41,336 bases of DNA from Thermodesulfovibrionales bacterium (GTDB lineage Bacteria > Nitrospirota > Thermodesulfovibrionia > Thermodesulfovibrionales > SM23-35): NCBI GenBank assembly GCA_031082155.1, contig JAVHLL010000025.1:1-41336 (forward strand), in the 5' to 3' direction. Below the pieces are notes generated by a model. The model was given only the letters and a program-made list of their open reading frames with translations. It was not told the origin of the DNA and did no database searches. A program made the translations under genes and the position numbers. Shown here piece after piece: positions 7,936-35,960 of the stretch; the stretch's first letter is position 1; each line of letters starts with the position of its first letter.

Positions 7936-8517
7936 CTACCCCTCTATTTTTTGAGTTAGTACTGTTTCCTCACCGAGACCCTGATTGCCATCTGGTATTT
8001 CGCATACCAGGTTTGCCCTTTTCAAAAGCCTGAACATCATATTCCTTGCCTCATTCGTCCTGATCTCGTAAATCTTCTCCCGGCACTGCATGAAAATATC
8101 GAAGGCAAGAAGCGCCAGCGCATCTATCTCTGATTCCAGTGAAAGCAATTCATCCTGGAATTGATTTCTCTGTAATTCTTTTCTCAGTTCCTCCCGGACG
8201 ACCTTTTTCAGCAGGAAGAGGAAGGATACGGATTGGGAAGGGGAAAAATCCTGCACTGCCTTTATCTTTATAATATCGTTGAGGTAAGGGAAATACCTTT
8301 CAGGGTCACCTCCCTGCAGGAGTTCTTCAAACAGACCGTGTATTACCTCCGAGAACGTAAATCCTACTGGATTGGCAAACTGATTGTGATTGCTTTTAAA
8401 AAAATTTGAAGTATCCGGGGGATAGCTTGCTACAATTGTATCAAACCACCTTTTCAGAATGGACGATTTTTTTTCTAACAGGAGATCCTTGAGATTCATA
8501 TCCAGTCTCTGCGTCAC
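7936..8517 (-). CDS. RsbRD N-terminal-like domain protein, first gene of the dsrMKJOP operon
   Basis: 193 residues, all-alpha, no membrane segment and no cysteine cluster (two Cys only). The layout KDLLLEKKSSILKRWFDTIVASYP followed by NPVGFTFSEVIHGLFEELL resembles the RsbRD_N domain, a non-heme-globin-like sensor fold found in stressosome co-antagonists. No STAS domain follows, so this is a stand-alone domain. It is tightly coupled to dsrM (4 bases), suggesting a role in assembly or sensing for DsrMK. Start GTG 8517 or ATG 8499 are both possible; neither has an ideal site, and AAGG lies right next to the GTG. It has its own promoter. Confidence 0.85.
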   Translation of the reverse strand: MTQRLDMNLKDLLLEKKSSILKRWFDTIVASYPPDTSNFFKSNHNQFANPVGFTFSEVIHGLFEELLQGGDPERYFPYLNDIIKIKAVQDFSPSQSVSFLFLLKKVVREELRKELQRNQFQDELLSLESEIDALALLAFDIFMQCREKIYEIRTNEARNMMFRLLKRANLVCEIPDGNQGLGEETVLTQKIEG

Positions 8518-9205: not shown

Positions 9206-10600
9206 TTATTTATGAATAAGTTTTTTTCTTTGATGGGACTCCGCCATCCGAATCATCCCATTCACCCACTCCGGTGTGCCAAAGGCATGGATATGGGCAT
9301 AGGTGGCAAGCACATTCTTATAGCAAATCCCATCCATTTTATTCAGTATCCCCTGCCCTTTCCGCATCCTGAATACGAAAGAAAATCCTTCATTTTCCGA
9401 TAGTTCGCGCACATGGGAATAATGGAATTCATGACCGTGGAGGACATTGCCGCAATCAAAATACGGGTTGGGGTGTGTTACCTCAACAATTGCATAGCCG
9501 TGCCCCTGCGGTTTTTTGCTCACCTCGATAACGATCGGGAAAATGCCGGCCATCTCATAGGTCCTGCCCTCCCAGAACAATGTTTTCGCCAGATACATTA
9601 ATCCTCCGCACTCAGCATACACAGGCATTCCTTCCTCAGCAACTTTTCTGACTGCCTCAAGGAGCTTCCGGTTGGCAGAAAGAGCATCTGCGTGAGTTTC
9701 GGGGAAGCCTCCGCCTATATAGAGGGCATCCAATGCAGACGGCAGATCATCGGTCAGGGCACTGAATTCGATGATTTGCGCCCCTGCCCGCTCCAGCGCT
9801 TCTATGTTCTCCGGATAGTAGAACTGGAAGGCTGAGTCACGAATCACTCCGATAGTAACCTGTTTTTCCCTGACCTCTAAAATCGGTGCGTGCCGCAGGT
9901 TTACCGCAGGAGCCTCAGTTGCGATTTGCCATACCTGTTTCATGTCCAGATATTCGGAGACAGTCTGAGCAGCCTTCTCAATTGCATCTTCGGCAACAGG
10001 ATGTTCCTGGGGAGGTACGAGACCAAGATGTCTCCCTGGAAAATTGATATTCTGCAGTTTCGGAATTGCGCCAAGAACCGGCAGGTGACAATACTTTTCT
10101 ATACTCTGTCGGATAACTGATTCGTGACGATGCCCTGCTAGCCTGTTGAGGATAACCCCCTTGATCGGCACTACAGGATCAAAAGTCTGACATCCGAGAA
10201 CAAGAGCAGCAACAGTGCGGGTCACTTTTGTGCAGTCTACGACAAGAATGATGGGGGCCTGAAGGAGTTTTGCCACTTCAGCGGTGCTCACACTTCCTTC
10301 AGCATCCATACCGTCATACAGCCCCCGGTTACCTTCGATAACAGCTATATCCGCATTCTGCGCATGCAGACTCAAGGAAGAGAGCACCTGATCTTTATTC
10401 ATAAGGAAAAGATCGAGGTTATAACACGGATGACCTGCGCCACTGCTCATCCAGCCCATGTCAATATAATCAGGTCCCTTTTTGAAAGGGACGACCCTGT
10501 ATCCCTGTTTTTTCCATGCACGGCAGAGCCCTACACTAAGGACCGTCTTGCCGGTGTCTCCCCCGAGACCGGCGATGACAAGCCTGGGGCATTCTATCAT
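9206..10600 (-). CDS. dsrN: CbiA-family a,c-diamide synthase, probable DsrN (siroheme amidase)
   Basis: 464 residues, usual for CobB/CbiA. An N-terminal P-loop (GLGGDTGKTVLSVGLCRA) with DethiobiotinS-like ATPase fold, and VEGNRGLYDGMD, are followed by a class I glutaminase half with YIGGGFPETHA, the nucleophile Cys in YAECGGLMYLA, and the GHEFHYS histidine region. CbiA proteins transfer amide from glutamine to cobyrinate carboxylates. In dsr clusters the related DsrN is thought to make siroheme amide for DsrAB. No other cobalamin gene is in the window, which favours DsrN. Its start overlaps the zinc-ribbon gene by ATGA. Confidence 0.88.
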   Translation of the reverse strand: MIECPRLVIAGLGGDTGKTVLSVGLCRAWKKQGYRVVPFKKGPDYIDMGWMSSGAGHPCYNLDLFLMNKDQVLSSLSLHAQNADIAVIEGNRGLYDGMDAEGSVSTAEVAKLLQAPIILVVDCTKVTRTVAALVLGCQTFDPVVPIKGVILNRLAGHRHESVIRQSIEKYCHLPVLGAIPKLQNINFPGRHLGLVPPQEHPVAEDAIEKAAQTVSEYLDMKQVWQIATEAPAVNLRHAPILEVREKQVTIGVIRDSAFQFYYPENIEALERAGAQIIEFSALTDDLPSALDALYIGGGFPETHADALSANRKLLEAVRKVAEEGMPVYAECGGLMYLAKTLFWEGRTYEMAGIFPIVIEVSKKPQGHGYAIVEVTHPNPYFDCGNVLHGHEFHYSHVRELSENEGFSFVFRMRKGQGILNKMDGICYKNVLATYAHIHAFGTPEWVNGMIRMAESHQRKKLIHK

Positions 10601-10839
10601 CGTCTGCTTGGGCCGGGCACTTCGATCGTGCTGCAGCTGCCGCTGCTGCAGCTCTTCACGGTAGATGTTGCTTTGCTGCCGCTTACTGAAGCACCGATAT
10701 TGATGGTACTTAATATGCGCTCAACCTCCGTTGATTTGCATTTTGGGCACTTCATTTTTATGCCTTCTTCCTCTTTCTTCAATTTCAGAAGTTCGAATAC
10801 TTTCCCGCATTTCAGACAGCGGAATTCATAAATAGGCAT
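10597..10839 (-). CDS. FmdB-type zinc-ribbon small protein
   Basis: 80 residues from ATG 10839, chosen for the AAGGAGCAGCT site directly upstream; the frame extends to 10878 without a better start. It begins MPIYEFRCLKCGKVFE and has a second CPKC pair, the FmdB/regulatory zinc-ribbon signature (CxxC...CxxC). The tail is Ser/Gly/Cys-rich (KSCSSGSCSTIEV), adding two cysteines. The role of this family is poorly known. Translational coupling to the CbiA/DsrN gene suggests a shared function, perhaps in siroheme handling, which is inference. Confidence 0.88.
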   Translation of the reverse strand: MPIYEFRCLKCGKVFELLKLKKEEEGIKMKCPKCKSTEVERILSTINIGASVSGSKATSTVKSCSSGSCSTIEVPGPSRR

Positions 10840-10992
10840 AGCTGCTCCTTTCATCTTAATAAAATAATTTAACTGCACTGACTATATACTGCTCTCAGTT
10901 TTACAATAAATATGCCTTTCAGGAAAAGTCAAGGAACCCCTCATTCCACGCGGGTTGTAAAATACTTGTTCCTTCAAACAAACCGGGGAGGC

Positions 10993-11022: not shown

Positions 11023-12096
11023 ATGACGACTGCACCGGAAGAACCCCGCTGCCCTTTCTGTTACCACAGGATCGAACAGCCGAGAGAACTGCCCCAAAGA
11101 AAAGTCATGGAATTTCCTGTCGGTGCATGCATGCACTGCGGCGCTGTGTATGCATATGACACTACAGGGCATAATATGGGGGCAGCGTTTATTGAGTCCC
11201 TTCTTTTTGCCTGCAATGAAGATGACTATTTGGCTTTTTCTCTCTCTCATGGAGATGATTACACTGATGCGGTGGTCGGGAATTACGATATCGTAACCCA
11301 TAGTATTGTGCCCGATAAAGTATATAATGACCGGTATGTACGGGGAGCCCTCGTGTTCGTCAAGCTCTTCGGCCAGTTCCATGATGCAACAGGAGGAAAG
11401 GTAAAAGAAAAATTAAAATATTCCACCCCTATTGTAAAGACGAAGCTCCGCTCGGAAAAATTCTCGAAGGAAAAAGTCCGTCGGGATATTGCAGAAAATA
11501 ACCTCTCTGACCTTATAGCTCTCGCTGAAGAAGACACCCGGGTAATCAATGAACTGCAGCGGATGCTCTATACTCCGGATGAGCAGGTACGCTGGAAAGT
11601 TATTGACATGCTCGGCATGGTCTGCAGGAAAGTTTCCGAAAAAAGGCCTGATATTGTGAGTAAATTTATCAATAATCTCCTGCAGAGTGCAGCATATCCC
11701 GGTGCATCAGCATGGGGCGCCCTCGAAACAATCGGTACCGTTATCAGCATAAATCCAGGTTTGTTTGGCGAATTCACAAAGCCTCTCCTTTCCTTCATGG
11801 TTCATGAAAGCCTCCGAAAAGAACTGCTGTGGGCCATTGGAAAGATTGCAGCAGCAGATCCAGCCCTTGCAAAACATGCTTTCCGCGCCCTTTCTGCATT
11901 GCTTGACGACAAAGATCCTGGAGTGCGCGGATATGCTGCGTGGGCGTTAGGCAACATCGGGTTCAATGACGTGCTTGAAAAATTGAAAAGTCTCGAATCC
12001 GATGACAACACACTCTCTCTCTGGAGAGACGGAGAGCTGCAGGAAGTGAGTGTTGCACAGCTCGCGAAAGAGGCGATCGAAAAGATCACCCGATGA
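11023..12096 (+). CDS. Zinc-ribbon plus HEAT-repeat protein, paralogue of the DVU0298-like protein
   Basis: 357 residues from ATG 11023 (GGAAGGAG site); an upstream ATG at 10912 has no site and overlaps the promoter. An N-terminal zinc ribbon (CPFC...CMHC) and a segment around residues 40-140 without known domain lead into HEAT/PBS-lyase-like helical repeats (EQVRWKVIDMLGMV, KELLWAIGKIAAAD, VRGYAAWALGNIG). The repeats match, block by block, those of the protein at 18018-18716. No enzyme motif is visible, so a scaffold or partner-binding role is likely. It is coupled by ATGA to the next gene. The position between dsr blocks suggests a role in Dsr enzyme assembly or regulation, unproven. Confidence 0.88.
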   Translation: MTTAPEEPRCPFCYHRIEQPRELPQRKVMEFPVGACMHCGAVYAYDTTGHNMGAAFIESLLFACNEDDYLAFSLSHGDDYTDAVVGNYDIVTHSIVPDKVYNDRYVRGALVFVKLFGQFHDATGGKVKEKLKYSTPIVKTKLRSEKFSKEKVRRDIAENNLSDLIALAEEDTRVINELQRMLYTPDEQVRWKVIDMLGMVCRKVSEKRPDIVSKFINNLLQSAAYPGASAWGALETIGTVISINPGLFGEFTKPLLSFMVHESLRKELLWAIGKIAAADPALAKHAFRALSALLDDKDPGVRGYAAWALGNIGFNDVLEKLKSLESDDNTLSLWRDGELQEVSVAQLAKEAIEKITR

Positions 12097-13202
12097 AGAA
12101 ACCGTCAATACGGTACCTGGTCGCTTCACCCTATGGTGACGTCCCGGTCGACGATGAAAAGCTCGATTTCCCTCTCGAAGCGGACCCGTTAAAAACCCCT
12201 TACAGAGTGTATTTCCGGTCGATCAGCGACTTTCTTCTGGGGAACAACTGTATGCCGCTGTTACACTCGCTCAATACAGCGCCCGGAGCAGAGATTCAGC
12301 CCCATGATATTGAGGAAATCGTTGTCCGGACAGAAAAACACGGGGCGCTCTACCATCCGGCAAGCATCGAAGTCGTCTGCAGGGAAAACAGGAGGAAATT
12401 CGGCCTTAATGTCGCAGTCACGGATACGGGGAAAGATTTTCTCAAGAGAGAATTTACGCTGCTCACCATGCTCCATAAAAAATTCAGTCTGCCGTATATC
12501 CCGGCCCCCTATTTCCTTGACGAACCGGATTCCATGGTGTTTCTTATCGAGGAATGGTTCGAAGGCTATCATGAATTCCATATTGCGGATACTGAAGACG
12601 GGGGACAGAAGTTGAAACTCTGGGAATACGGGAAAGGGGACCGTTTTCTCTCTCCTGAAGAGAGCGCTGAAATCTACCGGCAGGCCTCCAGGATTCTCAC
12701 CCTCTATTATGATATACAACGCTTCAGGCTAATCTATCCATGGCACCACGCAGCAGGGGATTTCGTGGTAAAGATACCCGATGGGAAAGGGACAGAGGTG
12801 AGGCTCACTACAGTACGCGGATATGAACCTTTCCTCGGAGCCGCTGAAGACATGGTGCATCCCACCCTTGCCCTGTTCTATTTCCTCCTCCATCTCTCGA
12901 TTCAGATGCGGCTGGATAAACTGGACGGCGTCGGTGATACCGCCTGGGCAGACGATGGATGCGTAGATGCCACGCTCACAGGGTTCTTCCACGGACTTGA
13001 CTCAAGGAAAGATTTTCGCGAATGCTGTGGTTCGGCTGCAGAATTTCTGAACCTGCTGAGATCGTTCGGCAGGGAAGACCTGAAAACTACGTTCCGCACA
13101 GTTGCTGCCCAATTCGAACAGACAAAAGACTTTCCGGTGATAGAGAAAAATTTAGAGGATCATATCGGCAGGTTTTTTCTTACGCTTCAAAATTTCCCTT
13201 AA
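12093..13202 (+). CDS. Uncharacterised protein, possible divergent kinase-like fold
   Basis: 369 residues, soluble, no signal peptide. I do not recognise the family with certainty. The middle resembles a protein-kinase/aminoglycoside-phosphotransferase fold: FLKREFTLLTMLHKKF, PYIPAPYFLD..MVFLIEEWFEGYHEFH (hinge-like), then YPWHHAAGDFVVKI, which looks like a catalytic loop (H..GD), but a clear Asp-Phe-Gly equivalent and the nucleotide-binding lysine are not obvious. It may therefore be a pseudokinase-like binding protein. The ATG overlaps the stop of the HEAT gene (ATGA), so the two are co-translated. Its 3' end overlaps the convergent YkgJ gene by 23 bases. Confidence 0.8.
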   Translation: MKKPSIRYLVASPYGDVPVDDEKLDFPLEADPLKTPYRVYFRSISDFLLGNNCMPLLHSLNTAPGAEIQPHDIEEIVVRTEKHGALYHPASIEVVCRENRRKFGLNVAVTDTGKDFLKREFTLLTMLHKKFSLPYIPAPYFLDEPDSMVFLIEEWFEGYHEFHIADTEDGGQKLKLWEYGKGDRFLSPEESAEIYRQASRILTLYYDIQRFRLIYPWHHAAGDFVVKIPDGKGTEVRLTTVRGYEPFLGAAEDMVHPTLALFYFLLHLSIQMRLDKLDGVGDTAWADDGCVDATLTGFFHGLDSRKDFRECCGSAAEFLNLLRSFGREDLKTTFRTVAAQFEQTKDFPVIEKNLEDHIGRFFLTLQNFP

Positions 13203-13827
13203 GGAGATCGTCAAAAGACATCCTCAATATTCGCGAGAGCGGCAGCATAAGATTTGCTTTCCTGTCAGGATGGAGCGTTTTCCCTTCAGTCAGAAGCTTC
13301 TCGGACAGCCTGCAGAGTTCACTGTAAATTTTGTCGAGCTTTACCGTGGGATAAGAGGCTTTTTCCTCAAAACCCGAGATACTGCAGACATACGCGTGTT
13401 CCTTTTTCTCTTTCCGGAGGCTGTAGGGAACACCATAAATACGGCAGATGATCGGGCGGGTCTCATAGAATACACATTCTTCTTTGTCACCAAGGAAAGG
13501 ACATCGCACCCGCTGTTTCCCGAGTCCGTATACTTTCATTTTCGGGTCTTCATCAAACACCTTGAGGGTCTCCTTTGCCTTCAGTATCTCGTCCTCGCCC
13601 TTTTCAGCCCTTCTCAGGATATCTCTCCGGACCTTCCGCTCGAGACGGCTGAAATGAAAATGAATGGAGGCTGCCTCTATGGGGAACACACCGAAAACAG
13701 CATGACAGCAGTCGCAGCAGCGGATCCTGCAACGCACACTGTCAGGATACTTCTCCTGGACTGTCTTAAAGAGGATATCTGCTTTCCGGGCAAGTATTGC
13801 ATATTCTGAAAAAAGCTCTTCGATCAT
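13180..13827 (-). CDS. YkgJ-family cysteine-cluster protein
   Basis: 215 residues. The cysteine pattern CRIRCCDCCHAVFGVFPIEA early, then CPFLGDKEECVFYETRPIICRIYG, fits the YkgJ/CxxCxxCC family (putative zinc- or iron-sulfur-binding proteins, sometimes linked to methyl-group or cluster chemistry). The function of the family is mostly unknown. Its start overlaps the stop of the TPR gene (ATGA), so the two are coupled, and both run in the same direction as dsrABD just upstream. The long basic helix near residues 85-112 (RRDILRRAEKGEDEILKAK) is unremarkable. Confidence 0.85.
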   Translation of the reverse strand: MIEELFSEYAILARKADILFKTVQEKYPDSVRCRIRCCDCCHAVFGVFPIEAASIHFHFSRLERKVRRDILRRAEKGEDEILKAKETLKVFDEDPKMKVYGLGKQRVRCPFLGDKEECVFYETRPIICRIYGVPYSLRKEKKEHAYVCSISGFEEKASYPTVKLDKIYSELCRLSEKLLTEGKTLHPDRKANLMLPLSRILRMSFDDLLKGNFEA

Positions 13828-14582
13828 TTCTTCGGCCCGGCTTTTCCTGTCCTTTTCCCTTTTCCTGTCCCAGCAGTCTTTTCTGGTTTGCTTTTGGTTT
13901 TAGTTTTGGTTTTCGCTGCTGTTTTGGTCTTTGTCCTGCCTGCAGTCTTCTTTTCCGATTTTTTCCGGTGCGGTTCGAGAAGTTTCAGAAAATCAGGATG
14001 GACCTCAAATCCGAGTGCAAGCGCCCTGTCGCAATTTTCGATCGCTTTCTCTATTTCACCGAGAAGATGATATACATTCGCAAGGTTATTGTAACCAAGA
14101 GCAAAATCCGGCGCGAGTTCCAGCATTTTCCTGTTCATCGCAAGACTTTTGTTAATATCATCTTTCTGAAGATACGCATTTGCGAGGTTACACATTGCCT
14201 GCACAACGTCAGGATTCAGCTCCAGCGCTTTTTCCAACGCCTCTATTGCCTCATCGGTCTTCCCCATCTGCAGGTAGGCAAAACCAAGATTTGCATATCC
14301 CCGGGCATACCGGGGTTCTATTTCAACCGCACGGATATTCGCCTTTGCAACTTTTTCCAGGTCTCCATCCTTGAAATAGATATAGCCAAGATTTACGAAA
14401 GACTCAAACATCCTGACGCCCTGGACTATTGATTCTTCAAACGCATCAATCGCTTCATCGAACTTCCCCTGACTCATCAGAGCAACCCCTAGATTATAGA
14501 GGGACGCGGCACAGTCCGGTTTCTCTATCAATCGGAGTTTCTGTTCATGAATAAATTGCTCTATGTTTTTCAGTTCATCCAT
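13824..14582 (-). CDS. TPR protein with Lys/Thr-rich tail
   Basis: 252 residues. Five or so tetratricopeptide repeats can be read from residue ~20 to ~205 (for example YNLGVALMSQGKFDEAIDAF, YANLGFAYLQMGKTDEAI, CNLANAYLQKDDINKSL, YNNLANVYHLLGEIEKAI). The last ~40 residues are a low-complexity Lys/Thr/Gly tail with K-T repeats, possibly nucleic-acid or membrane-surface binding. No signal peptide. TPR proteins serve as scaffolds; the partner is unknown. It follows dsrD after 219 bases that contain hairpins, and overlaps the YkgJ gene. Confidence 0.9.
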   Translation of the reverse strand: MDELKNIEQFIHEQKLRLIEKPDCAASLYNLGVALMSQGKFDEAIDAFEESIVQGVRMFESFVNLGYIYFKDGDLEKVAKANIRAVEIEPRYARGYANLGFAYLQMGKTDEAIEALEKALELNPDVVQAMCNLANAYLQKDDINKSLAMNRKMLELAPDFALGYNNLANVYHLLGEIEKAIENCDRALALGFEVHPDFLKLLEPHRKKSEKKTAGRTKTKTAAKTKTKTKSKPEKTAGTGKGKRTGKAGPKK

Positions 14583-14801: not shown

Positions 14802-15059
14802 CTATCCTCCTGCATCGCCTGATTTTTCAACAGATATGCCTCTGCCTTTCAGTCCGTACATGGTAGAACTTCCGGTTGACAATAACTCCATTACCTCTTC
14901 ACTTACCATCGCGGATGCTACTTTCTTGACCTCTGATGCACCAGCGTCAGGGATTGTCTTCTTCACGCCGGTAAGCATATCCTTGAAATAGAATTTGCTT
15001 TTGGCGCCTTTCGAGGCATAGTCTATGATAGCCTGTCTGATGTCTTCATCTCTTCCCAT
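14802..15059 (-). CDS. dsrD: DsrD, small winged-helix activator of DsrAB
   Basis: 85 residues, close to the ~78 of known DsrD. The core IIDYASKGAKSKFYFKDMLTGVKKTIPDA...VKKVASAMVSEEVMELLSTGSSTMYGLKG matches the DsrD winged-helix fold. DsrD is characteristic of reductive-type dsr clusters and has been reported to stimulate sulfite reduction by DsrAB. It begins 24 bases after dsrB and is the last gene of the dsrABD unit. Its presence, with no dsrEFH in the window, points to sulfite reduction rather than sulfur oxidation. Confidence 0.96.
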   Translation of the reverse strand: MGRDEDIRQAIIDYASKGAKSKFYFKDMLTGVKKTIPDAGASEVKKVASAMVSEEVMELLSTGSSTMYGLKGRGISVEKSGDAGG

Positions 15060-15083: not shown

Positions 15084-16262
15084 TTATATACCACCAACAG
15101 CCTTGGATACAGCCCATGCATGGTCGGTATATTTAAACTGAGTCGATGTCCTGTAAGTATCAACAGCAAGGCGGTAATCGTCCAGGCTCTTCTCGGTGAA
15201 CGGGATACCGGTCTTCTCAAAGAATCTCTCCCAGCCGATACGCCCAGCCCAGTCGCCGATCCTCTCATACTTATTCGCGTCCTTTGCCCAGACTTCAACG
15301 ATGTGTTTCACCACATTCGTTACTTCAGGCCAGCGCGGCATATTGTTCGGAAGCCACGGAATAATTACTTTCGAGAATTTCGGCATGCTGATACGGTTTG
15401 AAATCTTGCCGCCGACCAGAATAGCGATACCGTCACCTTCTCTGTCTGCCAGAGGTAATCCCAGACACATGGTATAGCAGTTGCCGCAGTACATGCACTT
15501 TTCATTATTGACCGATACGCTCTTCTTGCCCTCTTCGGTGGTAATCGGCTTGATTGCATAGAGCGGACATGCAGCGACAACAAGGGGAATCTCGCAGACT
15601 TTCCCAAGGACTTCGTGGTCAATTGCCGGCGGCTTGCGGTGATAGCCGAGCAGAGCGATATCAGAACAGTGCACAGCGCCGCACATATTGAGACAGCAGG
15701 CCAATGCTATTCTTAATTTCGCAGGCAGCCTCATGTTTTTGAATTCGTCAAACAGCACATCAGCAGTCGCCTTGACCGGACCGGAAGCGTCGGTTGCAGG
15801 GGTATGACAGTGGACCCACCCCTGGGTATGGACAATATTTGACATGCCCATTCCTGTGCCGCCTGTCGGGAATTTGAAAGAACCTCCAATATGCTTTTTA
15901 CCGTCAAGCTCTTTTTTGAGCGCCTTTGCCTTTGCTTCGTCGTCCAATATAAATTCAATGTTATTTCTCGTCGTGAATCTCACATAACCATTGCAGTGTT
16001 TATCAGCGATATCGCAGATTTCACGAATGTGTTCAACCGAAATCAGTCTTGGTGCAGCAGCCCTTACAGTAAAGGCCTTTTCACCTGTCTCGGAAACATG
16101 CACTAAAAGACCGGGCTCCAGTATTCTGTGAGAAGCCCATTTCCCGTAATTCCTCCTGATGACAGGCGGCAACATCTGCCCATAGTGACTGGGGCCGATA
16201 TCAGTTATCCTGCCTGCCTGAGGCTTTTTGGGATCATAATAACCAAGTTTGCCTTTCGACAT
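15084..16262 (-). CDS. dsrB: DsrB, dissimilatory sulfite reductase beta subunit
   Basis: 392 residues. The siroheme-[4Fe-4S] ligands are present: [16 protein letters not shown], then [13 protein letters not shown]. The ferredoxin insertion reads [11 protein letters not shown] and [16 protein letters not shown], with Leu after the last cysteine in place of the usual Pro. DsrB carries the catalytic siroheme site that reduces sulfite in the cytoplasm together with DsrA and DsrC. The tail [20 protein letters not shown] extends slightly beyond the common end. It follows dsrA by 18 bases. Confidence 0.98.
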
Positions 16263-16280
16263 AACATATCCTCCTTTATA

Positions 16281-17717
16281 TTATCTTGGATGTCTGGTTC
16301 TGTAAGCGTTAATGTCTCTGTCCCATCCACCGGGAACCTCTGACTCCTTGAAGAAGACGTACGGATTCGAACGAGGCTCTTTCACCATCTGAGGCATAGG
16401 CGGAATCCCGAGTACTTCACAGAATGTCTTCAAGCTGACGCGCTGGATTGTTTCACCGATACGCTCACGGTTCTTTCCTTCTTCAATCCACCAGTCGAAG
16501 ACCTTTCTGACAAGGTTTTTCTGGGAATCATACGGTTTGTTTACATACATAAATGGTATGGTCAGGCATCCCATCTGAGCGCCTTCGAGGATCGGGGCCT
16601 TTGCGCCGAAGAGGATACTCAAACCCTGGTCTTTCCCTACCCTTAATGCTTCGGGCATGGCGTCTATACAATGCATACAGCGGTTACACTCTGCATTGTT
16701 GATGCTGAGTTTCTTTCCATCCCATTTCATGCACTTGGTAGGACAGAGGTCGATTATTTCGCTCTGGATGTCGAATTTACCCCAGTCTCTCCCGGCAAAT
16801 GCTCCGCCGTCAACAGGGATCTTTCCGGCAACATATTCCTGGACCGCGTCCTGATTAATGCGGATGTCGTCCTTCCATGTGCCGATATACGCCATATCCG
16901 AACGGGCGATACTTGCGGTGCAGCCATTTGGACATCCGTCAAATTTAAATTTGAATTTATAGGGGAAGGCAGGCCTGTGCAATTCGTCCTGGAACTCCAT
17001 GGTCATTTCATAACAAAGATCCATGGTATCGTAGCATGCAAACTCACAGCGTGCCTTGCCGATGCAATCAGAAGGGGTACGGAGGTTTCCACCCGAACCG
17101 CCGATATCAACACCGAGATCATGGGTCAGGTCAAAGAATATAGGCTCCAACTGGTCAGAGAATGAACCCAAAATAACAAGGTCTCCGGTAGAACCGTGCA
17201 GGTTGGTCAACCCGCTTCCGCGGTATTCTGCGATGTCACAGAATCCTCTCAGCCAGTCAGTGGTATAAAATTTTGCACTTGGCTGATTAACACGGATGGT
17301 ATGGAAATGAGCGATATTGGGGAATTGCGCCTGCTGGTCGTTATAACGGCCTACAATGCCTCCGCCATAACCGAGGACTCCAACGATACCGCCGTGTTTC
17401 CAGTGGGTCTCACCCTCTTTATAGGAAAGCTCCACTATTCCCAACAGATCATCGCAAATATCTGCAGGGATCATGAGATTGTCCTGCCCCAATTTATGTC
17501 TGTGCAAAGCCTCTCTCTTGATGTCGCTGACGAAACTGGGCCAGGGTCCCGACTCTAACTGCTCTATCATCGAAATATCATGCTTCACCTTGAAATTCTT
17601 CAACTCATCGTCTGTATAATTCTTCAGCTGCTCGTCAGTAAAAATTCTTATATCATCATATTTTTTATGCTCTTTTTCTTCTTTATCCCACAGCTTCTCT
17701 TGTCCTGGGGCTCCCAT
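16281..17717 (-). CDS. dsrA: DsrA, dissimilatory sulfite reductase alpha subunit with N-terminal extension
   Basis: 478 residues. Conserved blocks include QLESGPWPSFVSDIKREA, ETHWKHGGIVGVLGYGGG, the cluster ligands CIGKARCEFAC and CPNGC, and the ferredoxin domain LCPTKCMKW...CNRCMHC. The C-terminus VPGGWDRDINAYRTRHPR is typical. About 40-45 residues before QLESGPWPS exceed the Desulfovibrio protein as I recall it, and hold an 8-residue near-repeat (TDEQLKNY, TDDELKNF). The start ATG 17717 has AAGGAGGTAAGC directly upstream, so the extension is probably translated. First gene of dsrABD. Confidence 0.98.
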   Translation of the reverse strand: MGAPGQEKLWDKEEKEHKKYDDIRIFTDEQLKNYTDDELKNFKVKHDISMIEQLESGPWPSFVSDIKREALHRHKLGQDNLMIPADICDDLLGIVELSYKEGETHWKHGGIVGVLGYGGGIVGRYNDQQAQFPNIAHFHTIRVNQPSAKFYTTDWLRGFCDIAEYRGSGLTNLHGSTGDLVILGSFSDQLEPIFFDLTHDLGVDIGGSGGNLRTPSDCIGKARCEFACYDTMDLCYEMTMEFQDELHRPAFPYKFKFKFDGCPNGCTASIARSDMAYIGTWKDDIRINQDAVQEYVAGKIPVDGGAFAGRDWGKFDIQSEIIDLCPTKCMKWDGKKLSINNAECNRCMHCIDAMPEALRVGKDQGLSILFGAKAPILEGAQMGCLTIPFMYVNKPYDSQKNLVRKVFDWWIEEGKNRERIGETIQRVSLKTFCEVLGIPPMPQMVKEPRSNPYVFFKESEVPGGWDRDINAYRTRHPR

Positions 17718-18017: not shown

Positions 18018-18716
18018 TTATGAAGACTTCAGTCCTCCGGATACTCCGGTTATCTTGCTGACGGCTTCTTCAGCCCACTCTCCCAAGGACTTCACTGAAA
18101 ATTCTCCATTGCAATAGATGGTCACTGCAGCATCAGATACCTGCATCTGCCGGAGAAAGGGCACCGCAGGCCTGTATCCTGTCTGGCCCATTGCCCATGC
18201 GAGCAGTCCGAGCGTCTCTGCATCCGTACTCGCAAACACCGCGAATATCCTGTCACGAAAGAAATCCACCGAGTCCTCAATACGCTTCCCGAGACGGCCG
18301 ACACCCCAGAGTCCGCCCTTTACAAGAGGCGGTTCATCAATAGTGTGCGCAATCATCATACTGCCGTACGGGTCTATGATCTCAGGTATATGGGCAATAA
18401 TTTCCGCAATTGCCTGGGGGGCGCTCCAGCCGATCCCTCCTGACTCATCCGTCATCGACCAGAAAAGGGTCCTGATATAATTCCTCACCTTTTCTCCCCG
18501 CCCTGCCTTCCACCACTGCTCCATAACTTTGGCCACAGTCTCTATCGCAGCCCAGCGCACAGGTTCGTCCAGATCATAAAGCCGGAACCGGACCGCCTGC
18601 CAGGAATGCCGGTCCCTGATGCAATATTCCACCAGGAGGGCATATTCTCTCCTCTTCAGCAGTTCTGCTACCTGGTTCTTTACCGACAAATTCCCCTGTT
18701 CCATGCCATTTATCAA
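18018..18716 (-). CDS. DVU0298-like HEAT-repeat protein upstream of dsrA
   Basis: About 232 residues. The text VRWAAIETVAKVMEQWW, LFWSMTDESGGIGWSAPQAI and GLWGVGRLGKRIEDS resembles the uncharacterised DVU0298 family of sulfate reducers, with HEAT/PBS-lyase-like helical repeats and no catalytic motif. It matches the repeats of the protein at 11023-12096. The frame opens at GTG 18722. TTG 18716 has GAGG at a spacing of 5 and I prefer it; ATG 18704 is a further option. It runs ahead of dsrA in the same direction, though dsrA has its own promoter. A scaffold or maturation role is inference. Confidence 0.82.
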   Translation of the reverse strand: MINGMEQGNLSVKNQVAELLKRREYALLVEYCIRDRHSWQAVRFRLYDLDEPVRWAAIETVAKVMEQWWKAGRGEKVRNYIRTLFWSMTDESGGIGWSAPQAIAEIIAHIPEIIDPYGSMMIAHTIDEPPLVKGGLWGVGRLGKRIEDSVDFFRDRIFAVFASTDAETLGLLAWAMGQTGYRPAVPFLRQMQVSDAAVTIYCNGEFSVKSLGEWAEEAVSKITGVSGGLKSS

Positions 18717-18887
18717 TATCACCTCATTTTACATCGTTTGTATCCCTTCAGTGAAGAGTGAAATCCCCAGGAGGTGTTGGGGAGGTTTGAATATATTTTC
18801 CAAAATACCCCACCTGCATCTTCCCTTGTAAAAGAGAGACTTTCCCCTGCCGTAATTGTAATTGTTTCCACAGTTTTGATATTTTTG

Positions 18888-33913: not shown

Positions 33914-35893
33914 TCAGTCCCCGGGTTCCCGGTGAATATGGGCATGCTGCTTTAACTGCTCAAGTTTCATATTCTTCAATTCAAAAATCCTTACTTCCTT
34001 TTCTTTGCCTTTTACCCTGACCCGGTCCAGTTCATTGAGCTCTATATGTCCAAATAAATTTTCTCCCATAAATGGTTGAATGTGTTCCAGCGTAAATTCT
34101 GTGATAATGATCTTTGCATTATAACTTCTCGTCAGTTTTTCTACCCGCGCACCGAGGTTCACATGATCACCGATAATGGTATAATCCATCTTTTTGCCCG
34201 GCGCTCCTATATTGCCAATTACCACTTCACCGGTATTGATGCCGATGCCGCAGTCGAGTACCGGCTTCCCCTCCCTTGTCCATTTCTCATGCAGTTTCTC
34301 GAGACTCGCAACCATATGCAGCGCGCAACGGAGCGCACTCTCTGCATGGTTTTCCTGGTCGACCGGAGCGCCCCAGAAGGCCATAATTTCATCACCCACA
34401 AATTTGTCGAGGGTGCCGTCCCATTTGAAGATAATGCTTGCCATTTCTTCGAAATATTCATTCAGCAGTTCTATGACCTGCTCAGGCGATGTCTGTTCCG
34501 ACAGTGTGGTGAACCCTATAATATCCGAAAACAGGACCGTCACTGTCTTCCTTTCACCGCCCAGCTTTGCCTTCTCGGGGTTGTTGATAATCTGTTCCAC
34601 AATTTTTGGCGACACATAACTCGAAAACATCCTCCTTATCTCACCGGCTTTCCTTTCCTCGAAAAAATATTTCGTTACAGTGACCACAACAGCTATCATC
34701 ATCATATTCGCTGCAGGGTAGATGAAATTGACCCAGAGATTCATGAAAGAAAAGAGTATCTGAACGCCGAGAATATACCCGGAGAACAGCGCAAAGGAAA
34801 GCGCAGCGCCCCTGATCGCACTGAGACGCGGGAGGAAGAAACCCAGCACCAGACCTGTCATGACAAGGACAATGATTTCAATATATCCCGGACTTTTTTC
34901 AAGAAAATTCCGGGTGAGGATATTCTCAACGATAGTGGCATTTTTCTCTACACCCGGCATGTTCGCTGAGAAGGGAGTGTTCTTCAGGTCATAGGTCGCA
35001 ATGGCTGACGTGCCGAGGAATACTATCCGGTTTTCAAGCTCTTTTTGTTGAACCTTCCCCGATAGGACGTCGGCAGCAGAAACCGGGATAAATGTTCCCT
35101 CCCTGCCGTAATAATTAATGAGCATCCTCCCTTTCCGGTCAGCAGGAATAAACAGGCCGCTTCCGAGCCTCACCCCCCTGCTACCGACAAGAGCCATTTC
35201 ATCACTTTTCAATCCGAGGGACACTCGCGCAGTCTGCAGTGCAAGAGAGGGAAAATATTCCTCTGCATATTTCAGATATAAGAACTCCCACCTCAGTTTC
35301 CCGTCGCGGTCGGGATGGCTGTATACATGCCCGCTGAGGGTATTATCGAGAATCTGCGGGATATCTGCCATAAGGGCATCAGCCTCGACCGCCCGGATTT
35401 GTCTCTGGTCCTCAAGCTTCATGAATACGGAATCGAACAGCGTGTACGGGATATCCTTTTTCTCCAGGTCCTTTTTTTTAAGCCAGACATCGAAGACCGC
35501 TGCCAGGATAATCTTATCCTTTGCACGGTGCAATACCTCACCAAGCGCTTTATCAGACTGTGCATCTTCCGGTTCGGTGTAAAAAATATCTACTGCAAGG
35601 ACCCTTGGTTGAAGAGCAAGGATTTTTGCTATAAGTTCAGCCTGCAGGGTCCTGCTCCAGGGCCAGCGTCCGTATTGCCTCAGGCTTTTTTCGTCTATTA
35701 CGACAACGGCTACGTTACCCGACACCTTCGGCGGAGAGATAAAATTTCTGGTCTGAAACCGATAGTCAAGGGTGAGCGTTTCGACGCGCTCCTCGACGGC
35801 ACCCGGCCGCCAGATGAGGAGGGCGAGGAAACACGCTGACGACAGGATGCAGAAAACGAATATGCGCCTGCCTATTTTCTGATGAATATTCAT
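33914..35893 (-). CDS. CHASE2-domain adenylate cyclase
   Basis: 659 residues from ATG 35893 (GTG 35905 and 35902 are in frame too). A first membrane helix is followed by a CHASE2 sensor outside the membrane (VAVVVIDEKSLRQYGRWPWSR, VLAVDIFYTEPEDAQSD, MLINYYGREGTF), then three helices and a class III cyclase domain (VTVLFSDIIGFTTLSEQ, DKFVGDEIMAFWGAP, TIIGDHVNLGARVEKL). The two metal-binding Asp residues, the Lys of DKFVGDE and the Asn/Arg pair are present, so it should be active and prefer ATP. The signal sensed is unknown. Confidence 0.93.
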   Translation of the reverse strand: MNIHQKIGRRIFVFCILSSACFLALLIWRPGAVEERVETLTLDYRFQTRNFISPPKVSGNVAVVVIDEKSLRQYGRWPWSRTLQAELIAKILALQPRVLAVDIFYTEPEDAQSDKALGEVLHRAKDKIILAAVFDVWLKKKDLEKKDIPYTLFDSVFMKLEDQRQIRAVEADALMADIPQILDNTLSGHVYSHPDRDGKLRWEFLYLKYAEEYFPSLALQTARVSLGLKSDEMALVGSRGVRLGSGLFIPADRKGRMLINYYGREGTFIPVSAADVLSGKVQQKELENRIVFLGTSAIATYDLKNTPFSANMPGVEKNATIVENILTRNFLEKSPGYIEIIVLVMTGLVLGFFLPRLSAIRGAALSFALFSGYILGVQILFSFMNLWVNFIYPAANMMMIAVVVTVTKYFFEERKAGEIRRMFSSYVSPKIVEQIINNPEKAKLGGERKTVTVLFSDIIGFTTLSEQTSPEQVIELLNEYFEEMASIIFKWDGTLDKFVGDEIMAFWGAPVDQENHAESALRCALHMVASLEKLHEKWTREGKPVLDCGIGINTGEVVIGNIGAPGKKMDYTIIGDHVNLGARVEKLTRSYNAKIIITEFTLEHIQPFMGENLFGHIELNELDRVRVKGKEKEVRIFELKNMKLEQLKQHAHIHREPGD

Positions 35894-35960
35894 CGTTTTC
35901 ACCACTGATTATTCATGAAACAGAGAAAAGTTGCAAGCAGACTCTGTCTGTAAAAACAAG

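Follow-up and report, generated by a model that had tools for sequence, protein, structure and literature searches.

The terminal enzyme of sulfate respiration is DsrAB. Both the insertion of its siroheme and clusters and the setting of its activity are poorly known. Among its accessory proteins, DsrN is a siroheme amidase. The protein-kinase-like fold is itself known; here it is met inside a dsr region, in a 41,336-nucleotide stretch of DNA (the window) from a Thermodesulfovibrionales bacterium (Nitrospirota, GTDB family SM23-35; contig JAVHLL010000025.1 of assembly GCA_031082155.1). Two overlapping genes of this region encode a zinc-ribbon/HEAT protein (HEAT in the following) and a protein named K here, the first member of a so far undescribed family that has a predicted kinase fold and belongs to the dsr gene neighbourhood. 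No account of the K family, of the conserved pocket or of the linkage to dsr was found in the open-licence literature; passages of PMC10504309, PMC8528874, PMC13293266, PMC2702500, PMC5109826 and PMC2901600, hold no description of K or of the HEAT-K pair. The two genes are:

11023-12096, plus strand: zinc-ribbon/HEAT protein of 357 amino acids (open reading frame; HEAT_2, HEAT_EZ and NF045662 matches)
12093-13202, plus strand: K, 369 amino acids, with a kinase-like predicted fold (open reading frame, Pfam and NCBIfam scans, AlphaFold2)

No Pfam or NCBIfam family matches K, and the same holds for 41 members of its family, which give scattered weak hits only; none of these 41 matches the APH family (PF01636) at E<=0.1. 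The AlphaFold2 model of K, built from a 16-sequence alignment, reaches a predicted local distance difference test score (pLDDT) of 88.5 and a predicted template modelling score (pTM) of 0.88, and takes on the complete strand order β1-β2-β3-αC-β4-β5-hinge-αE-loop-β7-β8 as assigned by DSSP. Foldseek retrieves 136 PDB chains with this model at E<=0.001, of which the best 50 are all kinase domains or annotated kinases and phosphotransferases. VIA-align ranks N-acetylhexosamine kinase first (4ocu, Z 13.0 over 246 residues, 4.5 Å), followed by homoserine kinase (2ppq, Z 12.4), APH(2'')-IVa (9qpb, Z 12.2) and then Bud32 and choline kinases. The predicted structure has the two lobes of a protein-kinase-like fold, which K almost certainly has; within this fold, K is placed on the aminoglycoside/choline-kinase side. 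An earlier note on this DNA, made from the letters alone, had read kinase-like text into two stretches (EEWFEGYHEFH and WHHAAGDFVVK) and had called for a fold search with the 369-residue protein; both stretches are present, and the search returns kinases, not an unrelated fold. That the resemblance is an artefact of modelling is extremely unlikely: the alignment behind the model is small and the Foldseek TM-scores are low (0.25-0.36 by query), but the pLDDT, the VIA-align scores and the full strand order speak for a genuine fold, as does the position of in-frame repeat inserts in the relatives, which fall just at the β7-β8 turn.

Among 16 family members, six (L005, L011, L012, L013, L014 and L015) have such an insert, close to residue ~231 of K. 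The insert of L012 measures 81 base pairs (bp; L012:2203-2283), and the whole of it or its first 36 bp matches at least 56 to 65 places in each of the genomes G005, G013, G015 and G017. Further inserts lie near residue 62 (L011, L012) and residue 104 (L010, L015). They are elements like repetitive extragenic palindromes (REP) within a coding gene.

The canonical kinase positions in K were placed by the DSSP register of the model and the usual kinase motifs. The P-loop turn falls at residues 81-87, β3 at 99-108, helix C at 111-131, the hinge after 154, the catalytic loop at 215-223, β7 at 224-227 and β8 at 235-238. Along the gene, the pocket is made up as follows:

12333-12356, plus strand: β1-β2 (P-loop) turn EKHGALYH, residues 81-88 (between DSSP strands 73-80 and 88-96)
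12414-12416, plus strand: A108, where β3 would carry the VAIK lysine (DSSP register)
12450-12452, plus strand: E120, the αC glutamate (alignment)
12555-12626, plus strand: hinge with three-strand insert, residues 155-178 (DSSP strands 160-166 and 172-178)
12738-12764, plus strand: catalytic-loop equivalent PWHHAAGDF, residues 216-224 (alignment)
12807-12818, plus strand: DFG equivalent TTVR, residues 239-242 (alignment)

Conservation was counted over 81 K sequences from loci detected by a peptide search (pattern [PH]WHHAAGD or E[ED]WF[ED][GD][YF]H). Since pattern-found loci bias a claim about conserved residues, 10 divergent members found by profile were checked as well. The place of the VAIK lysine is held by alanine in 80/81 and in 10/10 profile-found sequences, with no conserved lysine at positions 104-110. 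The αC glutamate is kept (E120 is E in 76/81 and D in 5/81). H218, five residues before D223, would stand at the place of the HRD aspartate, and D223, directly before β7, at that of the loop asparagine; by the register to β7, an HRD-type catalytic aspartate with its loop asparagine is absent from the 81 and the 10 sequences. T239 or T240 sits at the place of the DFG aspartate (T240 in 74/81, R242 in 81/81), and no aspartate is found at positions 236-242 in the 81 or the 10 further sequences. The remark of the earlier note that a clear metal-binding DFG is lacking thus holds throughout the family (aspartate at 239-240 in 0/81).

Other residues of the pocket are fixed. W217, H218, A220, A221, G222, D223 and F224 are each present in 81/81, so that the conservation of H, G and D in YPWHHAAGDF, proposed earlier as a check, is complete for H218, G222 and D223 and extends to 10/10 profile-found members. 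The hinge insert contributes W155, E161, H163 and W177 (each 81/81), and L238, R273, D275, G279, G297, F298 and H357 are likewise invariant; the P-loop turn keeps K82 in 79/81, G84 in 80/81 and H88 in 80/81. All 10 profile-found members retain K82, A108, W155, E161, H163, W177, W217, H218, H219, G222, D223, R242, R273, D275 and H357. H83 and H88 are retained in 8/10, glycine replaces one or both loop alanines in 3/10, and methionine replaces the phenylalanine in 1/10. By the register of the model, the four canonical catalytic residues of K are gone and fixed residues stand in their place. Because the lost residues are replaced by fixed ones, a re-purposed pocket fits better than relaxed decay, and the chemistry of K, as modelled, is very probably non-canonical or none.

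Two further explanations take up these losses differently; a pseudokinase and a new phosphotransfer enzyme had both been suggested in the earlier note. K may be a strict pseudokinase, an inert scaffold, ligand-sensing or structural, that tunes Dsr assembly or electron flow through contacts with HEAT and TPR proteins. The absence of the VAIK lysine, the HRD aspartate, the loop asparagine and the DFG aspartate suits this explanation, as do the scaffold proteins encoded beside K and the tolerated loss of K alone in one genome (G652, described below). Pure scaffolds, however, rarely keep some fifteen residues of the cleft region unchanged from phylum to phylum, among them K82 at the P-loop and H218, H219 and D223 at the catalytic loop, which makes a strict pseudokinase rather unlikely. 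K could also be an active atypical transferase, with K82 serving for the β3 lysine and H218/H219 and D223 providing the chemistry, that transfers a phosphate or a nucleotidyl group to a small molecule or to a Dsr protein, for instance at the DsrA tail. A P-loop lysine stands in for the β3 lysine in WNK kinases, and K82 is kept in 79/81 and 10/10 sequences alongside the retained E120. Genes for RimK-like ATP-grasp proteins (12/80 loci) and YcaO (10/80), two classes that modify proteins or peptides, are found within 8 kilobases (kb) of K, both in a lineage-specific manner. The DFG metal site is nevertheless devoid of aspartate in the 81 and the 10 sequences and, to our knowledge, active kinase-fold enzymes all keep this residue, so that an active transferase is unlikely.

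A scan of GTDB genomes for K gave 256 relatives, the best 80 of which come from Nitrospirota, from Desulfobacterota under several names, from two Bacillota (Peptococcaceae/Desulfotomaculum) and from one record titled Nitrospinota. Of the 20 genomes in the window's GTDB family, 15 have K; in an even draw of 395 genomes from the phylum it is present in 12, all of that family. Among 296 Desulfobacterota genomes, dsrA is carried by 47/48 genomes with K vs 100/248 without it (p 1.9e-15), and in 31 of the 48 the two genes are no more than 10 kb apart. Neighbours were counted in 80 named K loci, within 6 kb unless stated. At least one of dsrA, dsrB, dsrD and dsrN is near K in 67/80, many of the other 13 lying on short contigs; a usual position far from dsr genes, which the earlier note had named as grounds for giving up its proposal, is not what the survey returns. 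Where 6 kb are available on both sides of K (n=25), dsrA is near in 22 loci and a TPR gene in 23. Two main gene orders are found: that of the window, with HEAT-K facing CxxCxxCC-TPR-dsrD-dsrB-dsrA, and a second one, TPR-K-dsrA-dsrB-dsrD-dsrN, with all genes in one direction. The distances of K and of DsrA correlate with a Mantel r of 0.58 over 55 loci (0/2000 permutations as high). Since the gene stays by dsr genes across several phyla, K probably helps to make or control DsrAB, and there is little doubt about a functional tie of K to Dsr. K as a mere passenger of a transferred dsr cassette, with its function elsewhere, is very unlikely: the DsrA clade discussed below indicates such a transfer and K lies away from dsrA in 16/48 genomes, but 47/48 K genomes carry dsrA all the same, and the linkage holds in both gene orders and in several phyla.

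The commonest neighbour of K is a TPR gene (66/80), followed by HEAT (44/80), a CxxCxxCC gene (41/80) and FmdB (26/80). The earlier proposal of HEAT as the protein that K works with needs modifying: HEAT is a frequent neighbour, not the sole or universal partner. In two loci (L095:7616-8986 and L100:7784-9109), a YcaO gene immediately precedes TPR-K-dsrA and is read in the same direction. Two other candidates were set aside. Locus L106, with K, DsrN and DsrC and no dsrA, was considered as a case of K apart from DsrAB; part of its DsrN consists of N, however, and the region may be missing from the bin. A viral role for K was dropped after 64 pattern matches in viral contigs, none of which is a relative.

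The partner gene and the surrounding dsr region hold these features:

11050-11139, plus strand: Cys4 zinc ribbon (C10, C13, C36, C39) of HEAT (alignment of relatives)
11491-12078, plus strand: DVU0298-type HEAT domain, residues 157-352 (NF045662)
10597-10878, minus strand: FmdB-type zinc-ribbon protein (TIGR02605, 53.9 bits)
9206-10600, minus strand: dsrN, CobB/DsrN-like amidase (Pfam/NCBIfam)
7936-8517: RsbRD_N protein, DsrT by its position adjoining dsrM (Pfam/NCBIfam and gene place)
13180-13827, minus strand: CxxCxxCC (YkgJ-like) protein (PF03692, 23.3 bits, cut-off 23)
13824-14582, minus strand: TPR protein (Pfam)
14802-15059, minus strand: dsrD (PF08679)
15084-16262, minus strand: dsrB (open reading frame and sequence; recovered in relatives)
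16281-17717, minus strand: dsrA (TIGR02064, 578.8 bits)
17586-17717, minus strand: N-terminal extension of DsrA (sequence; clade distribution)

Both HEAT and K are open reading frames that share the four letters ATGA, in which the HEAT stop TGA (12094-12096) overlaps the K start ATG (12093-12095), as the earlier note had it. Its statement that no other plus-strand unit lies between dsrN and dsrABD is also correct, HEAT and K being the sole plus-strand genes between dsrN and dsrD, and it passed over the minus-strand FmdB, CxxCxxCC and TPR genes that flank the pair. Beyond these flanking genes, dsrD, dsrB and dsrA follow on one side; dsrN, dsrC, the RsbRD_N (DsrT) gene and dsrMKJOP lie on the other. 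The DsrT place next to dsrM agrees with PMC10504309. The longest HEAT reading frame would begin at 10912; the start at 11023, with GGAAGGAG directly 5', has the better ribosome site and agrees with the start in relatives. HEAT adjoins K in 16/16 K loci from 15 genomes of the window's GTDB family. Against a genome of the same genus, the ratio of nonsynonymous to synonymous substitution rates (dN/dS) is ~0.14 for K (0.042/0.300) and ~0.13 for HEAT (0.045/0.343), and both are real genes under purifying selection. Promoter- and terminator-like sites, looked for as signs of a separate promoter, are no commoner than in shuffled sequence. The 3' ends of K and of the CxxCxxCC gene share 23 bp (13180-13202). 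Farther away, a CHASE2-guanylate cyclase protein is encoded at 33914-35905 on the minus strand; the other genes scanned near it look ordinary (LpxD, LpxI, M16 peptidase, sigma-70, UPF0182). No Rfam match is found anywhere in the window.

The identification of the first gene product as a zinc-ribbon/HEAT protein stands. C10, C13, C36 and C39 are invariant in 28/28 aligned HEAT proteins, with the ribbon inside residues 1-45; HEAT_2 and HEAT_EZ exceed their Pfam cut-offs, and the score of 172.4 bits for NF045662 (DVU0298_fam, curated cut-off 75) places the protein in the DVU0298 family. Its AlphaFold2 model has a pLDDT of 89.7, and the Foldseek matches are ARM/HEAT solenoids. A second DVU0298-family HEAT protein, devoid of a zinc ribbon, is encoded at 18018-18722 on the minus strand, upstream of dsrA (135.3 bits). 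In the 296 Desulfobacterota genomes, with presence set at E<=1e-18, dsrA is carried by 127/130 genomes with DVU0298 and by 20/166 without it (p 2e-57); seen from the other side, DVU0298 is present in 127/147 dsrA-positive vs 3/149 dsrA-negative genomes. Because its carriership tracks dsrA there, the DVU0298 family is a signature of dsr-bearing organisms. HEAT is found beside dsr also without K; of the two, HEAT thus has the broader link to dsr, and K is accessory. DVU0298 has one mention in the open-licence literature, a table entry in a CO review, which as far as the passage shows is not about the HEAT partner.

Several variants of the HEAT protein were seen. Six loci chosen for their long frame (L159-L164) encode zinc-ribbon/HEAT proteins of ~580 to 620 amino acids with a repeat-like C-terminal tail; they adjoin TPR and CxxCxxCC genes, lack K and are mostly near dsr. 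One genome of the window's family that lacks K encodes a stand-alone zinc-ribbon domain of 134 amino acids (L208:5308-5709), flanked by dsrN and dsrC, and short zinc-ribbon forms like it occur in seven Desulfobacterales-type loci.

The DsrA of the window carries ~40 amino acids beyond the usual leader of 11-13. This N-terminal extension, with its conserved KYDELRIYSDEELNNYTEEELK-like text, is found in 19/19 loci that have an adjacent HEAT and a complete DsrA start (three truncated loci set aside) and in 3/34 readable loci that have no adjacent HEAT; among those three, HEAT is cut by the contig end in L071, and L094 begins inside K. The extension maps to a single clade of DsrA (28 rows), which has a Shimodaira-Hasegawa-like approximate likelihood ratio test (SH-aLRT) support of 91. 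Being confined to that clade, it counts as one event, not as independent evidence. The idea that the extension is linked to K alone was dropped: the extension tracks the clade, is present in G652, which lacks K, and is absent in 31/34 readable K loci that have no adjacent HEAT. The clade joins K/HEAT loci of Nitrospirota, Desulfobacterota and Bacillota, the window's DsrA among them, and G002 and G007, two genomes of the window's own family that lack K, carry a DsrA distant from it. Because the window's DsrA groups across phyla and not with G002 and G007, it seems that the dsr cassette was passed between phyla together with HEAT and K. The HEAT-K pairing belongs to one DsrA clade.

A number of observations weigh against K as a kinase-fold Dsr accessory factor. 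At the level of sequence profiles, the kinase relationship does not appear: hhalign of K against an alignment of 13 APH-family proteins gives a probability of 0.5%, and a PDB profile search with K has a best E of 0.19 and no match. The pocket itself is read from the DSSP register of a predicted model. K was found in 0/41 searched genomes of the same order outside the window's family, with dsrA in 55 of all 61 searched, and 100/147 dsrA-positive Desulfobacterota genomes have no K, so that K is dispensable. In 12/48 carriers, K lies on another contig than dsrA and in 4/48 on the same contig at more than 10 kb. G497 (L149) holds K without a dsrA match, in a bin that may be incomplete; K stands there beside a putative ThiF/MoeB-like reading frame. 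The Mantel correlation is also expected from the shared descent of the organisms. Lastly, G652 (L205), of the same DsrA clade, keeps dsrABD-TPR-CxxCxxCC-HEAT-FmdB with K cleanly absent, leaving 143 bp between the CxxCxxCC and HEAT genes where K would be. Since G652 retains HEAT and the extension, K is not strictly needed even with both.

With the alternatives weighed, the favoured explanation, to which we give about even confidence, is that K is a Dsr accessory factor acting in maturation or regulation through ligand binding in a kinase-shaped pocket. Gene pair, fold prediction, conservation, dsr linkage and co-transfer form its observed base, on which residue roles, ligand, partners and function may be laid out as follows. 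The cleft would be kept with its Mg-ATP ligands lost and a strict set, K82, H218, H219, D223, R242, R273 and D275, in their stead; E161, H163 and W177 from the hinge insert would complete the rebuilt pocket. The cleft may bind a nucleotide, a metal or a tetrapyrrole. The zinc-ribbon/HEAT solenoid could serve as a platform, joined by TPR and CxxCxxCC partner proteins, and K would help them in the assembly, modification or regulation of DsrAB. Docking, in the lineage of the window, may take place at the N-terminal extension of DsrA. For the HEAT-K pair, the linkage suggests that it may have a role in sulfite reduction. It is unlikely, though it would be the most novel outcome, that K modifies DsrAB or the amidated siroheme with a new histidine-based active site (K82, HH-x3-D and arginine for the DFG glycine), in the window's clade via the DsrA extension; if true, the kinase fold would gain a new catalytic type, and sulfate respiration a new maturation step. 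The conserved dsr-linked module of unassigned proteins (zinc-ribbon/HEAT, TPR, CxxCxxCC and K) points to missing steps of DsrAB maturation or control, and with K the kinase fold would be extended by a rewired pocket.

Compared with known systems, K shares its genome linkage to dsrAB with the Dsr accessory proteins DsrC, DsrD, DsrN and DsrT, whose families are unrelated to it, DsrT being an RsbRD_N protein and DsrN a CobB-type amidase. Purple sulfur bacteria have a further Dsr protein, DsrS, of about 40 kDa. HEAT resembles the DVU0298 family (NF045662), whose curated cut-off is passed by its HEAT domain and by the second copy at 18018-18722, and differs from it by the added N-terminal Cys4 zinc ribbon domain. 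With the choline/aminoglycoside-kinase side (NahK 4ocu, homoserine kinase 2ppq, APH(2'')-IVa and choline kinase), K has in common the two-lobe fold, the glutamate of helix C, the hinge and the positions of the catalytic loop and the β7-β8 hairpin. It lacks the VAIK lysine, the HRD aspartate, the loop asparagine and the DFG aspartate of these enzymes as well as any Pfam- or profile-level similarity to them, and adds a three-strand hinge insert with the invariant E161, H163 and W177.

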